Shown here: piece after piece, positions 11,814 through 19,552 of the stretch | Numbering within the stretch: the first letter of the stretch is position 1 | How the letters are laid out: every line of letters begins with the position of its first letter | NCBI GenBank assembly: GCA_018266845.1 | Contig: JAFDZO010000012.1 | Span: 124,001-188,000 of the forward strand | Source of the DNA: Bacteroidota bacterium | GTDB taxonomy: Bacteria > Bacteroidota > Ignavibacteria > Tepidaquicellales > Tepidaquicellaceae | Length of the DNA: 64,000 bases | Reading direction: 5' to 3' | Position numbers and translations under genes: made by a program | Notes under the pieces: generated by a model | What the model was told of the DNA's origin: nothing | The model's database searches: none | Seen by the model: the letters and a program-made list of their open reading frames with translations, nothing else

Positions 11814-11885
11814 ACTAAGGTTTTCAAATTTTTGGAGATTTGTTGTATTTACAGGAGTTTATTTTCGCGGTGGTGGGAGGTTTAC

Positions 11886-11930
11886 AAAGTTAATAAGGTT
11901 TGTAAAGTTTGTAAGGTTTATAAGGTTTGA
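11886..11930 (+). repeat. Five tandem 9-bp units (AAGGTTTGT-like)
   Basis: Five consecutive 9-base units (AAAGTTAAT, AAGGTTTGT, AAAGTTTGT, AAGGTTTAT, AAGGTTTGA) form a short minisatellite in the 329-base gap 11720-12048. The gap also holds the 53-bp repeat and a palindrome, and no gene. Confidence 0.8.
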
Positions 11931-11982
11931 TTTGACGGCGGAACGGACGGAAAATTTATAAGGCCGGATTATTTGCTGGTTT

Positions 11983-12003
11983 CCCCTCCTTGACAAGGAG
12001 GGG
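11983..12003. repeat. Perfect 21-bp palindrome
   Basis: CCCCTCCTTG and CAAGGAGGGG flank a single A, giving a perfect 10-bp stem. It is followed by GTTAGGGGTGG. It lies 46 bases past the stop of the TPR/PIN-like gene and could act as its terminator or be a REP-type element; there is no clear T run. Confidence 0.75.
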
Positions 12004-12048
12004 TTAGGGGTGGTATAAATTAGGATTGGTTTAGCTACCATTTTCAAA

Positions 12049-15000
12049 TTAAACTAAATCTTTTTTTAATTTCCACGTCTCAAATATTTTTTTAAACCAT
12101 TCGTAGAATTCTTCTATCTGTTCTATTGATTCTTTATCATCTTTTAAATCATTTCTAAATGTATTAACTGATTCCGTAACAATTTCAAAAAATCTTATAT
12201 AGAACTTTTCAAGGTTGCTTTCATTAGTTGATAAAGAATCCATTGTATAATCAAAGAATTTATTTCTATTATCTTCATCCATTTTTAGCATAAAAAGATG
12301 AAAAATAAATTCTTTGACGACCTGGATTGTACTTTCTTTATTATAATTTAAATTTTTAAATAAGGAAATTGTTTTTAACGCCTCACTGCTTTTTTCAAAA
12401 TTTCCATCCACAATTCCACTTAATATCACTGGAACATTAATGGGTAAAATAAAATAATTTTTTGAAATAAGTGTACTAATAGTTTTATTGAGTTCTCGTT
12501 GAGTAAATATTAGTCCAAGATTTGAATTTTGCGATATTAATGAAAAATAATTAAGAAAAGCAAAAGAACTGCAAACCAAAAGTTCAGAACTAATATTAGG
12601 AGCAAAATTAAAAAGAACATTATCATCGTAGAGTAAAAGTGATTTCTTTTCTATTGCCAAATTCAAAGACTGAGTAGATGATTTATCCAAACTCTTTAAC
12701 AATTTAGGGTCTATGTAACTTTTAATTGGAGCTGAAACATAAGGTTTAATATTATTAATTATTTTATCTATTAGTTTTACTTCTTCTTTTGTTTCATCAA
12801 TTGATATTGAAATTGGAATAATTTGTCCCTTAATTTTAACAACCGAATTTCTTTCTTGAGTAAGAAAGGGTTGTATTGAGTTTTTATAATTATTCAACTC
12901 ATCCAAGAAATTTTGTGGTACATATATATTAGTAAATAGATATTTCAAAAAATTAAATTTATCGATGATTGTTAAAGTAATGCAACATAATGGATCAACG
13001 ACTACTAAGTTGTTTTTTTCTAAATTACTAATTTCAAATTCTTTTATATTTCCGCTAAATACATGGATTTTTCCATTAGGTGTACGAGTAAGGCTATACC
13101 AGATTTCAAAAAAGGTTTTGCCTGTATACTCAACAAGTGACCCAAAGGGAAGCCTTCTGGCTATATATGTATCAAATATATCTTCTCTTTCTGCATATTC
13201 AGGTGTATGCTTTTCCAATGTTTTCAATACACTATCGTTTTCTATTTTAATCTTTTTAAGGAACTTGCTTTCTGGATATTTTTCTTCCCAATTTTCTAAT
13301 AATTCATGATATTGGTTTTTTATTTCCTCGGAGATTTGATCAAAAATTTCTTTCTCTAAACAAGTCAGACAATTATGCATAAACATTTCTGCTAAACGAT
13401 AGTCACTTGGATTACTAATAAATGCAAGATAAGATAATTCAATAGCTCTTTTCTTTTCATCAAACAAATTTAAATACCCGGAGATTCTACTTAAATATTC
13501 ATATTCTTTATTTTTAATCATTTCGTTTACTTTCGCATTCAAAATTTTGAGAGCCTCATCCTTATTATTAACTCTAAATTCACAAACAGCTAAATTAAAA
13601 AAATACTGATAATTCTTTTCACGAATGGCTAACTCTTTAAGAAACTTAATAGCATCATAATACATTTCATTGTTAAAAAAAACATTCGCCCTAATATCGA
13701 ATATAAATTTATTATATTCATTATTAGTTTCTTCTAAAGTCTTAGTTGTAATTTCTAATACCTCTGAATCTTTTCTTTGATTATATTTACAATTAAGTAG
13801 TGCTCTATAAATGTAATCTACTTCGTTTGCATTAAAGAACTTAATAAAAATATCCTCTGCCTCCTCCCATCTACCAATTTCATAAAATAAATTCCCAAGT
13901 TCAAATAATAATACATCGTTTCCTTCTTCAACTTTAGATATAGAATTTTGTAAATATTCAATAGCTTCACTTATTCGTTCAACTAAAACCAAATAATCAA
14001 CTTTTTCTAGTATTAAATCTTTTTTATAAGGAAATTTTTTTTCAACTTCAGATAGAACCGTTTCAATTCTTTCATAGTCAAGTTTTGCCTCATAAATTCT
14101 ACATAATTTTAAAAATAGTTGAAAATTTTCATCATTTAATTGTTCTTTGAGGTTTTCAAAAGTAATCCCATTATCTTTTAATAAATTTTCAGCCTTATCA
14201 AATTCATTACCAAAAATGTAAGCGTTTACTAAGTGCTTTAATGTAATTTTCGAGTTTGTTTTATAAGCTTTTTCAAATTCTACAATTGCCTCTTTAATCT
14301 TACCTTTATTCAATAGACAACCCCCTAAGTTAAAATGTAATTCTTCGTCAATGTAATTTGCATTTTTGCATTTAATAAAATGTTCATAAGCTTTTTCTAT
14401 ATTTCCAATCAATGAATAATTCATCCCTAAATAAAAGTCACATAAGCTTACTTTGTATTTATTATCTTGCCTTTCAAAAACCGAAAGTGCATTATTTAAC
14501 ATTTCAATATTTTCAGCAAAAAATGACTGAGAATCTGTATTTTTAATTTTTAACCGTGTGCCTATTTTATTTAAATCATTTACTTTCGGAATTATTCTAC
14601 AAATTACATATTCTAAATATACATCGGGATCTTCCGTTTTTAATTCTAATAATTTTTGAAAATAGGTTAAGGCTCTTTCTTCTTTTCCTGCCCTCATAAG
14701 TCCTATTGCGCAAGTAAAGAGAACATTTCGATTATTTAAATCTTCTTCCGAAAATACTTTTAAAGCTTCTTCAATTTTATTCTCTCTTGCTAAAAATTCT
14801 GCCTTTAATATTTTTACCTCTTCATTATGTTCTACGATACTAAAATTTATTCTTATAAATTCCAATCCAAGGCTATATTCTTTTTTGAGAAGATAAAGAT
14901 AAAGAAAAGATGTTTTATTTCTAAATGTATTGGTAGCATACTTTACAGCTTCTTCAAAAAAAGATATAGCTTCTTCATGTTTTCCCAAATTAATTAACGC

Positions 15001-15774
15001 TAACCCAGCATTTTTATATAATCTATTTTTATCACCTTGAGGAATTTTGGCTGAATTACTATAGTCATTGATCAAATTTTTATAAATCTTTAATGCAGTG
15101 TTGAACTCTTGGGTGTTATAATTTTCGTTAGCAATTTTAAATTTTGAAGTGAATTCCAAATCATTACTTTCAAAATCACTCTTCAATGAGGAAAAATTTT
15201 TAATACTATCTATTTTATCAATTTTTTCCTCTAGTCTAGCAAAGTGCTCTGAATTAATAAAATTCCCTGAATCAATTTTTGAATCAATGATGTCTAATTT
15301 TCTAGTACTAGATTGAAGAATCCCTATAATATCAGTTAACTTGTTTTCCACAATAAAGTGGTGGAATAATTTTCCTAAATCTTTTGAATTTAATATATTT
15401 TCTTTTAATGTCTCGAAAAAATTTATTATGATTTTCTTGGCAATTTGTTCAGATTCACTTTCATAATAAAAACCAGATTCTATAAATTTTTTAGATAACA
15501 ATTCAATAGAGATTTCTCCATTCCCTTTCTTAAAATTCTCTAGTTCATTTATAACTTCTTTATCTTCAAAAAGTGAATAGAAATACTGTTTGTTCAGTTC
15601 TATATTTTCATTAAAATATTTATCAATAACTTGTTTAATAGTCTGGCTTAGAATAGAATCCTCAGAATCTTTGGAACTAAGTAATTTATCGTATATGAAT
15701 GAAGATAAAATATTGGTCAAGATTGGAAAAGTAAAAGAATTTAATATTATTTCTACTGCTTGATTATCAAACAT
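12049..15774 (-). CDS. Giant TPR protein with putative GreAB-C-like and PIN-like C-terminal domains
   Basis: The 1241-residue protein has three parts. Residues 1-190 are helical, with a hydrophobic N-terminal segment (VEIILNSFTFPILTNILSSF) and a coiled stretch (about 150-200). Residues 205-800 are a long array of TPR-like helical pairs (for example NAGLALINLGKHEEAISFFEEAV; ELGNLFYEIGRWEEAEDIF). Residues 865-915 (RRLPFGSLVEYTG and the strands after it) resemble the GreA/GreB C-terminal fold. Residues 920-1090 look like a PIN nuclease, with candidate acidic residues Asp927, Asp958/Glu959 and Asp1050/1051. TPR/GreAB-C/PIN proteins have been described, as I recall, as bacterial conflict-system components. 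The gene is isolated, flanked by repeats and much more AT-rich than its neighbours, which suggests transfer. The domain calls are by eye. Confidence 0.75.
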   Translation of the reverse strand: MFDNQAVEIILNSFTFPILTNILSSFIYDKLLSSKDSEDSILSQTIKQVIDKYFNENIELNKQYFYSLFEDKEVINELENFKKGNGEISIELLSKKFIESGFYYESESEQIAKKIIINFFETLKENILNSKDLGKLFHHFIVENKLTDIIGILQSSTRKLDIIDSKIDSGNFINSEHFARLEEKIDKIDSIKNFSSLKSDFESNDLEFTSKFKIANENYNTQEFNTALKIYKNLINDYSNSAKIPQGDKNRLYKNAGLALINLGKHEEAISFFEEAVKYATNTFRNKTSFLYLYLLKKEYSLGLEFIRINFSIVEHNEEVKILKAEFLARENKIEEALKVFSEEDLNNRNVLFTCAIGLMRAGKEERALTYFQKLLELKTEDPDVYLEYVICRIIPKVNDLNKIGTRLKIKNTDSQSFFAENIEMLNNALSVFERQDNKYKVSLCDFYLGMNYSLIGNIEKAYEHFIKCKNANYIDEELHFNLGGCLLNKGKIKEAIVEFEKAYKTNSKITLKHLVNAYIFGNEFDKAENLLKDNGITFENLKEQLNDENFQLFLKLCRIYEAKLDYERIETVLSEVEKKFPYKKDLILEKVDYLVLVERISEAIEYLQNSISKVEEGNDVLLFELGNLFYEIGRWEEAEDIFIKFFNANEVDYIYRALLNCKYNQRKDSEVLEITTKTLEETNNEYNKFIFDIRANVFFNNEMYYDAIKFLKELAIREKNYQYFFNLAVCEFRVNNKDEALKILNAKVNEMIKNKEYEYLSRISGYLNLFDEKKRAIELSYLAFISNPSDYRLAEMFMHNCLTCLEKEIFDQISEEIKNQYHELLENWEEKYPESKFLKKIKIENDSVLKTLEKHTPEYAEREDIFDTYIARRLPFGSLVEYTGKTFFEIWYSLTRTPNGKIHVFSGNIKEFEISNLEKNNLVVVDPLCCITLTIIDKFNFLKYLFTNIYVPQNFLDELNNYKNSIQPFLTQERNSVVKIKGQIIPISISIDETKEEVKLIDKIINNIKPYVSAPIKSYIDPKLLKSLDKSSTQSLNLAIEKKSLLLYDDNVLFNFAPNISSELLVCSSFAFLNYFSLISQNSNLGLIFTQRELNKTISTLISKNYFILPINVPVILSGIVDGNFEKSSEALKTISLFKNLNYNKESTIQVVKEFIFHLFMLKMDEDNRNKFFDYTMDSLSTNESNLEKFYIRFFEIVTESVNTFRNDLKDDKESIEQIEEFYEWFKKIFETWKLKKDLV

Positions 15775-16044
15775 ATAATTAAGTTTATTTTTGAAAAATA
15801 TTATAAAATTTGTTTTTTAAAACAAGCGAATAATATTCAAGAAAGCCCCCTTCTACATTGAAACTCCCCGCTATTTTAGGTATTTTACAGCTTCGCTTAC
15901 AAATGGTGAAATAGTGATATAGCGAAATAGTGGCATATCAAGATGATGATACAACATTGTTACATTCTTTCCGAAAAAACTTTCCGAGTGTAGAAAAAAA
16001 TAGAAAAAAAATAAATTAATAATATAAAAGGAGAAACATTTTAA

Positions 16045-17037
16045 ATGAAAAAAATCGGCATACTCTTCGGCCAGGAAAATACTTTTCCGCAGGCTTTTGT
16101 TGACAGAGTGAACTCAAAAAATATTGACGGCATCACGGCTGAGTTTGTGAATATTGATAAGGTTGTTCAGGGCGAGCTTTGCGGTTACGATGTGATTATC
16201 GACAGAATTTCGCAGGACGTTCCGTTTTACCGCGGCTTCCTGAAAAACGCAGCTATCAGCGGATGCGCAGTGCTCAATAATCCTTTCTGGTGGAGCGCCG
16301 ATGAAAAGTTTTTCAATAACGCTCTTGCAACAAAGCTGGGCGTGCCAGTTCCGAAAACAGTGCTTCTTCCTTCTAACGAGCATCCCACGGATACAAACGG
16401 CGGATCGTTCAGAAACCTTGCATTCCCGCTTGACTGGGAAGGCATTTTTGAATACACCGGTTTCCCTGCCTACTTCAAACCGTTTGCAGGCGGCGGATGG
16501 AAAAATGTTTATCAGATTACCGATATGGATTCGTTCTTCAAGGCTTACAATGAAACGGGTCAGCTTGTGATGATGCTTCAGGAAGAGATAAAGTTCGATT
16601 CGTATTTCAGATGCTACTGCATTGACAGGCAGGATATAAAGATAATGCACTACGAGCCAAGAAATCCGCACCATTTAAGATACGTTGCTAATCACGATGT
16701 AAGTCAGGAACTTCTTGATACAATAAGAGATTACGTATTGAGACTGAATAACGGACTGGGATATGATTTCAATACAGTTGAGTTTGCGGTGAGGGACGGA
16801 ATTCCGATTGCGATTGACTTCTGCAATCCCGCGCCGGATGCTGATAAGAATTCAGTGGGTGAAGAAAATTTTGAGTGGGTGGTGGAGTCAGCCGCTAACA
16901 TGGCAATAAGAAGAGCGCAGAACCATAAAGAGGGACAGAATAATTTAACATGGGGAACGTTTGTAAGAAACTTCTCGAACGATACTCCTTTAATGAACGG
17001 CGATGTAAAAAAAAAAGTAAGTAAGAAGAAGAAATAG
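16045..17037 (+). CDS. ATP-grasp family ligase (RimK/glutathione synthetase-like)
   Basis: The 330-residue protein begins with a Rossmann-like pre-ATP-grasp strand (KKIGILFGQENTFP). The grasp region shows a small-domain lysine loop (FPAYFKPFAGGGWKNVYQI, about 147-165), an LQEEI hinge, and the metal-binding end EFAVRDGIPIAIDFCNP with Glu, Asp and Asn. Such enzymes join a carboxylate to an amine through an acyl-phosphate. A good ribosome site (AAAGGAG) precedes the ATG at a somewhat long spacing. The next genes are a GCS2-type ligase and an M29-type peptidase, so it probably builds a small peptide or peptide-like metabolite. The substrate is unknown. Confidence 0.82.
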   Translation: MKKIGILFGQENTFPQAFVDRVNSKNIDGITAEFVNIDKVVQGELCGYDVIIDRISQDVPFYRGFLKNAAISGCAVLNNPFWWSADEKFFNNALATKLGVPVPKTVLLPSNEHPTDTNGGSFRNLAFPLDWEGIFEYTGFPAYFKPFAGGGWKNVYQITDMDSFFKAYNETGQLVMMLQEEIKFDSYFRCYCIDRQDIKIMHYEPRNPHHLRYVANHDVSQELLDTIRDYVLRLNNGLGYDFNTVEFAVRDGIPIAIDFCNPAPDADKNSVGEENFEWVVESAANMAIRRAQNHKEGQNNLTWGTFVRNFSNDTPLMNGDVKKKVSKKKK

Positions 17038-17118
17038 TTTTTGATTGTATTGGGTATTGAGTAGTGAGTATTGGGAATTTAAGAATTAAGAAATTAGATT
17101 TAAGATTTTGATGTAAGT

Positions 17119-17201
17119 TCAGAATTCAGATTTGTGATATAGGGTTTTCAGTAATTTTAGTATTATTTTAAAAATTCTGAAATCTGCTATCTGAATTCTG
17201 A
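17119..17201. repeat. Inverted repeat with 13-bp arms
   Basis: TCAGAATTCAGAT at 17119-17131 is matched by ATCTGAATTCTGA at 17189-17201, with a 57-base spacer. Weaker complementary AATTAAGAATT stretches lie outside. This fills most of the 259-base gap between the ATP-grasp gene and the GCS2 gene; no gene is seen in it. Confidence 0.65.
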
Positions 17202-17296
17202 GATGCAATGATTCTTAATTCATAATTCTACATTCATAATTGAAAAAGTTTTCCTTATCTTAGGCGAACAAAGTTTCAAACTAAAATTAACCCCGT

Positions 17297-18400
17297 ATGA
17301 AAAGCAAGCTTTTCACATTAGGCATAGAGGAAGAATTCCAGATAATTGACCCTGAGACGCGCGAGCTGAAGTCTCACATGAATCAGATTGTTACCGAAGG
17401 GCAGTCGCGGCTTCATGACCAGATAAAGCCGGAAATGCATCAGGCAGTTGTAGAGGTGGGTACGAATATCTGTAAAGATATTCATGAGGCGCGTGAGGAA
17501 GTATCGAAGCTGAGAAGAGATATTAGTAAGGTTGCTGTTGAATCGGGAATGCGTATTGCGGCTGCGGGCACGCATCCGTTTTCGCATTGGAAAGATCAGG
17601 AGATAACAGATCATCCGCGCTATCACGAAATACTAAACGAAATGCAGGAGACTGCAAGAGCGAATTTGATTTTCGGTTTGCATGTTCACGTTGGGATTGA
17701 TAATAGAGAGACGGGGTTGCAGCTGATGAATGCGGCGAGATATTTTCTTCCGCATATATTTGCGCTGAGCACAAACTCACCTTTCTGGCTGGGAAGAAAC
17801 ACGGGATTTCATTCGTACAGGACGAAAGTGTTTGACAAATTCCCGCGCACGGGAATACCGGATTTCTTTTCAAGCTTGGCAGAGTATGAAAATTATGTAA
17901 ATGTACTTATCAAAACAAAGTGCATAGATAACGCAAAGAAAATCTGGTGGGATATAAGACTTCATCCGTTCTTCGATACGCTTGAGTTCAGAATATGCGA
18001 TGTGCCGATGACGGTTGACGAGACAATCTCTCTTGCTGCAATTATGCAGGCAGTGATTGCAAAGCTGTATAAGCTGCTGCGCGCAAATTTGGGGTTCAGA
18101 ATTTACAGACGCGCTCTTATCATGGAAAATAAATGGCGCGCCGCAAGATACGGCATTCACGGCAAGATGATTGACTTCGGCAAGGTGGAAGAGGTGGATT
18201 ATAAATTCCTTATGCACGAGCTTGTTGCGTTTGTGGATGATGTGATAGTAGATTTGGATTCGCGCGATGAAGTATATAATATTTTTAAAATTATGGAAAA
18301 CGGAACGGGCGCTGACAGGCAATTGAAAGTTTATGAAGAGACAAAGGATTTGAAGAAGGTTGTGGATTACATTACGGAACAAACAGTAAAAGGGCTGTAA
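17297..18400 (+). CDS. Carboxylate-amine ligase, GCS2 family (glutamate-cysteine ligase-like)
   Basis: The 367-residue protein is of the YbdK/GCS2 type. The N-terminal signature FTLGIEEEFQIIDPETREL holds the acidic metal-binding cluster (Glu11-Glu13). The core strand FGLHVHVGID (127-136) carries two conserved His, and WWDIRLHPFFDTLEFRICDVP is the other family signature. These enzymes make gamma-glutamyl amides, classically glutamate with cysteine, with weak or unknown specificity in many bacteria. With the ATP-grasp enzyme upstream it could form a two-step, glutathione-like pathway, although no canonical gshB is seen. Two REP-like palindromes follow it. Confidence 0.9.
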   Translation: MKSKLFTLGIEEEFQIIDPETRELKSHMNQIVTEGQSRLHDQIKPEMHQAVVEVGTNICKDIHEAREEVSKLRRDISKVAVESGMRIAAAGTHPFSHWKDQEITDHPRYHEILNEMQETARANLIFGLHVHVGIDNRETGLQLMNAARYFLPHIFALSTNSPFWLGRNTGFHSYRTKVFDKFPRTGIPDFFSSLAEYENYVNVLIKTKCIDNAKKIWWDIRLHPFFDTLEFRICDVPMTVDETISLAAIMQAVIAKLYKLLRANLGFRIYRRALIMENKWRAARYGIHGKMIDFGKVEEVDYKFLMHELVAFVDDVIVDLDSRDEVYNIFKIMENGTGADRQLKVYEETKDLKKVVDYITEQTVKGL

Positions 18401-18419
18401 AAAAATTTTAATAAATCTT

Positions 18420-18449
18420 CTCGTTCCGATACTCCGGTGTCGGAACGAG
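18420..18449. repeat. TCC-apex palindrome, copy 1
   Basis: The arms CTCGTTCCGA/TCGGAACGAG (10 bp) surround an inner TAC-TCCG-GTG, so the tip reads TCC. It belongs to the variable-stem, constant-apex family seen across the window. It has no T run, so it is a weak terminator at best for the GCS2 gene 20 bases upstream. Confidence 0.75.
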
Positions 18450-18458
18450 TATAATTTA

Positions 18459-18484
18459 CGTTACGAACGGGGATGTTCGTAACG
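18459..18484. repeat. GGGA-apex palindrome, copy 2
   Basis: The arms CGTTACGAAC/GTTCGTAACG (10 bp) flank GGGGAT. It lies just upstream of the M29-type peptidase gene. An ATG inside this element (18473) is in frame with that gene but is unlikely to be its start. Confidence 0.75.
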
Positions 18485-18508
18485 AGAAAAAAACTCCCAA
18501 AATATTTT

Positions 18509-19552
18509 ATGAGTCAAATGGAAATTAACACGGAAGTTGACGCAGACTTACTGCCGGGCGCATATAATGCTATCAATGTTTGCTTAAGACTTAAACCAGA
18601 AGAAAGAATTACAATCATTGCCGATAACGATGCAATTGATATTGCAAGGGCGATGGAGCACGAGATAAAGAAAGTTGGGGCAGAGTTTGCCACATTCATA
18701 ATAGAAGATTACACTCCGAGACCGATACCCGGGGATTTGCCGCAGGTGATATTGGACGACCTTGCAAAATCGCAGGTAAGTATTTTTGCAGCTACTCCGA
18801 AGATGGGCGAGCTTCGTTCACGCGCTTCGATGACTTACGTTGTTGACGCTCATAAAATTAGACACGGACACATGGTGAACATCAACAAACAGATTATGAT
18901 GGAAGGCATGAGAGCGGATTTTATTAAAGTGGATAAAATCAGCCAGCGCCTGATTGATATAGCAAGCAAAGCAAAGATAATTAAGCACACATCAGATAAC
19001 GGAACAGACATAGTTGCAGAATTTGTTCCTGAATTAAAATGGCTGAAGACATCCGGCATTATTTCTCCCGATAAGTGGGGAAATCTTCCCGGAGGAGAAA
19101 TATTCACCTCACCATGGAATGTAAACGGAACGTTCGTCGTTGACGGAGTTGTAGGCGATTATCTCTGCCAAAAATACGGTGATATACTTCACACCCCTTT
19201 AACAATTGAAATAAAAGATTCGCGCATTGTAAAAATGACATGCGATAATAAAGAGCTTCTTGAAGAGTTCACTGCATACACAATGACAGATGAGAACAGC
19301 AACAGAGTAGGTGAGTTTGCAATCGGCACAAACATAGCGTGCAAAAATGTAATAGGAAATATTTTGCAGGATGAAAAACTGCCGACGATTCACATGGCAT
19401 TCGGACATCCTTACTCTGCGCACACAGGCGCAAAGTGGAGCTCCACAACTCATATTGACTGCGTTAGCATAAAGAACAGCATCTGGTGCGACGATGTTCA
19501 GGTAATGGAAAAGGGGGAATTTCTTCCTATAATAACAAGCGGAATTTTATAA
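18509..19552 (+). CDS. M29-type (thermophilic metalloprotease) aminopeptidase
   Basis: About 347 residues if started at the ATG at 18509. An in-frame ATG at 18473 lies inside a palindromic repeat and would add a non-conserved, basic 12-residue extension. The family's metal-site regions are present: GGEIFTSPW (Glu ligand), RVGEFAIGTN (Glu), IHMAFGHPYSAHTGA (His) and THIDCV (His, Asp). M29 peptidases are dimetal aminopeptidases of the Thermus aminopeptidase T type. The N-terminal half is shorter than in aminopeptidase T, so it belongs to a compact branch. Next to two peptide-bond-forming ligases, it may hydrolyse their product or a modified peptide. Confidence 0.85.
   Translation: MSQMEINTEVDADLLPGAYNAINVCLRLKPEERITIIADNDAIDIARAMEHEIKKVGAEFATFIIEDYTPRPIPGDLPQVILDDLAKSQVSIFAATPKMGELRSRASMTYVVDAHKIRHGHMVNINKQIMMEGMRADFIKVDKISQRLIDIASKAKIIKHTSDNGTDIVAEFVPELKWLKTSGIISPDKWGNLPGGEIFTSPWNVNGTFVVDGVVGDYLCQKYGDILHTPLTIEIKDSRIVKMTCDNKELLEEFTAYTMTDENSNRVGEFAIGTNIACKNVIGNILQDEKLPTIHMAFGHPYSAHTGAKWSSTTHIDCVSIKNSIWCDDVQVMEKGEFLPIITSGIL

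Follow-up and report, generated by a model that had tools for sequence, protein, structure and literature searches.

A solitary TPR-PIN gene in an AT-rich island

On the minus strand of the window, by which we mean the whole 64-kb stretch of DNA that was analysed, lies a single unbroken ORF with an ATG start, encoding a TPR-PIN protein of 1241 aa (Table 1). The AT-rich island proposed in the original prediction is borne out by calculation, since the G+C content of the gene is 0.256 as against 0.371 in the remainder of the window, and its GC3 is 0.185 as against 0.24–0.49 in 14 other window genes. The gene stands alone, as is characteristic of the TPR-GreAB-C-PIN system, and, as had been predicted, no companion toxin or ATPase gene was found beside it. 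The neighbours are ordinary genes (names read from the sequences). On the left they encode an FNR-like reductase, a LemA-like protein and a sugar-nucleotide enzyme; those on the right (16045–19552), for an ATP-grasp protein, a GCS2-like ligase and an aminopeptidase-like protein, form a block that is conserved in the relatives examined.

The TPR array, which lies N-terminal to the PIN domain as in the rest of the family, gives strong Pfam matches (TPR_2, 1.4e-19; TPR_19, 4.7e-19). Residues 1–165 gave no Pfam family above the cut-off and no known effector, and no match to EAD10 appeared. A kinship of this region with the N-termini of three relatives (L068, L027 and L076) was discarded, as the likeness is visual only and not better than that of a shuffled sequence, and so was a weak N-terminal match in G307, because the protein concerned is of another type and seems to be a peptide-modifying enzyme. 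At a guess, the N-terminus may serve as an adaptor or an oligomerisation part.

Table 1. Features of the TPR-PIN gene and its boundaries (positions in the window)
Feature	Positions	Strand	Basis or remark
TPR-PIN gene, intact, 1241 aa	12049..15774	-	G+C 0.256
N-terminal region, residues 1-165, helix-rich-looking	15280..15774	-	Position of relatives' effectors (e.g. REase, PNP-like, alpha/beta hydrolase)
TPR array, ~residues 214-832	13279..15135	-	Pfam TPR matches; AF2 helices 688-832, moderate confidence
Residues 770-832, TPR-like helices only; GreA/B-C position in relatives	13279..13467	-	PF01272, profile, model
Pre-PIN linker, residues 833-920, common to family	13015..13278	-	Alignments
PIN domain, residues 925-1054 (Pfam limits)	12613..13002	-	PF20698, AF2, Foldseek
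D927 codon, first PIN acid, strand 1	12994..12996	-	Family alignment
E959 codon, second PIN acid	12898..12900	-	Family alignment
Q1035 codon, site of usual third PIN Asp	12670..12672	-	Family alignment
D1051 codon, invariant across family alignments	12622..12624	-	Alignments
Left boundary repeat (gene 3')	11949..12026	.	Near-full-length match at G001 cargo 3' edge
Right repeat (gene 5')	15842..15887	.	Also right of G001 cargo, 79% over 47 bp
Right anchor, ATP-grasp gene 16045-17037	16004..17037	+	DNA homology with G001 restarts at 16004

The PIN domain and the region preceding it

TPR-GreAB-C-PIN is a predicted conflict system with a constant C-terminal part, composed of TPR, GreA/B-C and PIN, and an N-terminus that is EAD10 or one of 13 effectors; its genes are mostly standalone, and the GreA/B-C domain has been proposed to dock at the RNA polymerase beta' coiled coil while the PIN domain cuts the transcript (Kaur, Iyer, Burroughs and Aravind 2021, PMC8195603). 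This published system is the one to which the original prediction referred in describing a TPR/GreAB-C-like/PIN-like protein. The ORF, the TPRs and the PIN domain of that description are confirmed here, but the GreA/B-C segment is not, both Pfam and a leave-one-out profile being negative.

The suggested search with the PIN-TPR-GreABC family (PF20698) yielded a match of 29.9 bits at residues 925–1054, rising to 32.7 bits when only the C-terminal part is searched, against a Pfam cut-off of 27.8 bits. The fold prediction is in agreement: an AF2 model of residues 901–1106, computed with three relatives in the input, has a PIN-like alpha/beta order of strands and helices (pLDDT 74 and pTM 0.73, quoted for the best of five models only). 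The most probable Foldseek matches of this model in the PDB are 3i8o (0.98) and 3ix7 (0.97), which we take to be PIN proteins, followed at lower probability by SMG6, VapC4 and PAE2754, with E-values that are weak throughout (all >0.01). PDB sequences searched by profile yielded no relevant PIN relative. The acids named in the original prediction (D927, D958/E959 and D1050/D1051) are all present, and in the family alignment it is D927, E959 and D1051 that are retained and aligned with the catalytic acids, D958 and D1050 standing beside the latter two; an acidic active site of three to four Asp/Glu is thus represented by three residues. The third Asp that is usual in the family is Q1035 in this protein.

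Loss of individual acids is also found elsewhere. A clade of three relatives (L014:161–3835, L025:7695–11381 and L075:4507–8229) retains GreA/B-C and has T, A or S in place of the first PIN Asp, which suggests that these PIN domains are inactive. Since the first Asp is gone in this clade, loss of catalysis probably occurs within the family.

GreA_GreB (PF01272) has no Pfam match in residues 770–859, whereas six of the nine relatives tested have a match located precisely between the TPR array and the PIN domain (E 2e-7 to 2e-3). The GreA/B-C profile, rebuilt without each test protein, was applied to 13 single-PIN relatives drawn from phylum genomes, plasmids and three contigs of the genome contigs collection, and in 11 of them the true sequence outranked all 999 shuffles; L026 was ranked 25 at the correct place, and L027 was missed. 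For the 1241-aa protein the rank was 364 against 999 shuffles, at the wrong place. In the alignment, its TPR helices join directly onto the helix that comes after GreA/B-C in the relatives. An AF2 prediction of the whole C-terminal half from four sequences (mean pLDDT 51; used for the TPR–PIN secondary structure only) places helices across residues 688–832, with a block-mean pLDDT of ~51–84, and no strands before the pre-PIN linker. A GKK(V)GD-type motif does not occur in the protein. By profile, the GreA/B-C domain is absent from the 1241-aa protein, and the published RNA-polymerase mechanism is therefore not simply transferable to it.

This absence is not unique, as GreA/B-C was likewise not detected in two further TPR-PIN proteins, L076 (4475–8761; PF20698 63 bits) and L029 (683–5428; below the cut-off), both apparently with two PIN segments; among single-PIN members it was seen only in the 1241-aa protein. 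L029 starts with an alpha/beta hydrolase, and L076 is encoded close downstream of an HsdR-like gene. In a 14-member tree the branch of the 1241-aa protein is long (2.59) and its placement unsupported (32/41), so that loss of GreA/B-C and its ancestral absence are not separable.

Insertion slot, neighbourhoods of relatives and spread

A dispersed repeat and a perfect palindrome adjoining the gene had been reported, and both were recovered, the palindrome CCCCTCCTTG-A-CAAGGAGGGG (11983–12003) lying inside the repeat next to the gene 3' end. What had been missed is that a congener (G001, the sole congener compared, so that the slot comparison comprises two genomes) carries an OLD/PtuA-like module in the same insertion slot. 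Homology with G001 restarts 41 bases ahead of the ATP-grasp gene, and the following three genes are 92–95% identical. A few hundred bases to the left of this junction, G001 carries an unrelated AT-rich minus-strand module with a G+C content of 0.275 (L050:9712–12001; G001 C2:1209711–1212000), which consists of an ATPase gene and a 181-aa gene, both of 27–28% G+C. The ATPase has PtuA and AriAB-type matches and, by sequence, a TOPRIM-like C-terminus (OLD/PtuA-like); the 181-aa gene has no match in Pfam or PADLOC. The only near-full-length G001 match of the left boundary repeat (C2:1209612–1209698) is at the 3' edge of this module. The palindrome core itself is dispersed, with 44 matches in G001, 9 in the source genome and one weak match in eight other family genomes, and the placement may therefore be due to chance or driven by the repeat. 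A small ORF at 11859–12047 (NPSLSRRG) was rejected as a gene, being merely the dispersed repeat in translation. Past the left repeat the two genomes have different genes, and as the FNR-LemA-sugar nucleotidyltransferase block lies ~89 kb off in G001, no clean empty site can be demonstrated. On the simplest reading, the locus is a cargo slot that two congeneric species have filled with different defence-type modules, and the OLD/PtuA-like slot mate links the solitary TPR-PIN copy to defence cargo independently of its own neighbours.

The neighbourhoods of relatives also support a defence role, as judged from raw tallies. A CBASS cyclase with E2 and phospholipase lies next to L024, a type I RM methyltransferase with OLD-like and AbiEii-like genes next to L026, and a C5 methyltransferase next to L015. 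Gabija-type genes, Shedu and ThiF/JAB flank L033 on the S. meliloti LMB1 plasmid pC (NZ_CP141215.1 154471–170971). No obvious defence neighbour was seen for L014, L025, L027 and L068. The L033 family member is annotated as hypothetical, and plasmid pC is conjugative.

The family is spread sporadically. No orthologue of the TPR-PIN gene was found in 58 relatives, and in overlapping samples that each include the source genome, PF20698 exceeded its cut-off in 3 genomes among 119 relatives, 8 among 395 of the phylum and 7 among 391 of the class; the gene is accordingly not core, in keeping with what the original prediction required. The identity of the 1241-aa protein to any homologue found is ~20% or less. 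With the whole protein as the query, no close relatives were found in the genome contigs and viral contigs collections, and the C-terminal 467 aa gave no match in the phages collection. A 10-member family alignment was too diverged to serve as a search query; a 4-member alignment retrieved three loci from the genome contigs collection and none from the viral contigs collection. Family homologues occur on conjugative plasmids. The atypical composition (G+C and GC3) and the sporadic, non-core homologues mark the TPR-PIN gene as horizontally acquired, as had been proposed. One further family member (L077:6091–9624), broken by an in-frame TAA and located in an AT-rich island (0.306 vs 0.424), looks decayed.

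Proposed function, alternatives and known systems

We consider it somewhat probable, a little better than even, that the gene arrived by horizontal transfer and is a single-gene RNase for defence in which a PIN domain is controlled by TPRs and acts without RNA-polymerase docking. The long TPR superhelix would bind something produced or changed by an invader, either a virus or a mobile element, and would keep the C-terminal PIN domain inactive until this signal arrives. The freed PIN domain would then cut RNA by means of D927, E959 and D1051 with metal ions, and this cutting would stop the infection directly or through shutdown of the cell. Without a GreA/B-C domain, the protein would not act by docking at the secondary channel of RNA polymerase, as proposed for the family, and the TPR array rather than RNA polymerase may decide the site of action. 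From the original interpretation, the solitary, transferred TPR-PIN kin of a conflict system is thus preserved, but not its GreA/B-C part. We infer nuclease activity, auto-inhibition, sensing and defence from the domains and acids, the patchy spread and the shared slot; counted against the defence reading are Q1035, the housekeeping neighbours, the lack of a close orthologue, the dispersed repeat on the left edge of a slot shared by two genomes, and the fact that no family member has been validated in the literature searched.

The published mechanism might nevertheless apply unchanged if a GreA/B-C domain that has diverged past recognition docked on the beta' coiled coil, so that the PIN domain cut the extruded transcript. 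The pre-PIN linker, PIN and post-PIN core are indeed of the family type, and L027 was also missed by the leave-one-out profile despite a GreA/B-C-like alignment, but the lack of a PF01272 match here as against six of nine relatives, the profile rank, the predicted helices at residues 774–832 and the absent GKK(V)GD-type motif make this unlikely. It is improbable, too, that a catalytically dead PIN domain acts here as an RNA- or protein-binding module of a regulator or scaffold, as could be argued from Q1035 and from the first Asp lost in L014, L025 and L075, given that the protein retains D927 and E959 as well as the invariant D1051.

Two further explanations concern the role of the gene. A host housekeeping or stress RNase without a conflict role would fit the lack of an adjacent defence gene in the source genome; set against its absence from 58 relatives, its composition, the different defence-type module that fills the slot in the congener, and the occurrence of homologues within defence islands and on plasmids, this appears quite unlikely. 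Very unlikely, in our estimate, is a selfish or plasmid-stabilising gene on a mobile element that is not immune: homologues on conjugative plasmids and repeats on both edges are consistent with it, but the locus has neither an antitoxin nor an integrase or transposase, and the neighbours of relatives are immune systems.

On a bolder reading, which we consider rather less likely than not, GreA/B-C would be an optional targeting module within a broader class of TPR-PIN immune proteins, the 1241-aa protein with L029 and L076 possibly forming a TPR-sensing branch that cuts RNA independently of RNA polymerase. Such a branch, if real, would overturn the sole mechanism proposed for the family, which is widespread and has its own Pfam entry; the only proposed mechanism that was found depends on GreA/B-C. 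A natural protein with TPRs and a three-acid PIN domain but without GreA/B-C makes docking directly testable against a GreA/B-C-bearing relative.

Among known systems, PDC-S70, a PADLOC candidate PIN nuclease (PMC12988326), matches residues 923–973 weakly (E 1.3e-4; first half of the PIN domain), but its model is a short PIN (125–162 positions) without a TPR array. DS-3 of DefensePredictor is a one-protein PIN system without an antitoxin, validated in phage defence (PMC13092281); compared by description, it is alike in being a single-protein PIN system without an antitoxin and differs in that its PIN domain is split between the N- and C-terminus. The PF20698 proteins L076 and L029 share TPR and PIN and the undetected GreA/B-C, but have two PIN-like segments, whereas the 1241-aa protein has one, together with the pre-PIN linker of the single-PIN type.

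The closest comparison is that with the TPR-GreAB-C-PIN system (PF20698) itself, for which no experimental study was found in the literature searched (most subscription papers lay outside its scope). Relatives have effector-like N-termini: a Mrr/Cap4-like nuclease in L024 (weak Pfam matches) and, by eye, in L032, L033, L069 and L070, the hydrolase of L029, and, by eye, a PNP-like domain in a Nostoc relative. The 1241-aa protein follows the family order of TPR array, pre-PIN linker and PIN domain and is similarly solitary and sporadic, but has no recognisable GreA/B-C or known N-terminal effector, and has Gln for the third PIN Asp. It is a family member by PIN and TPR but departs from the published architecture in one of its defining features, and is best filed as a variant without GreA/B-C of an already published, predicted family.
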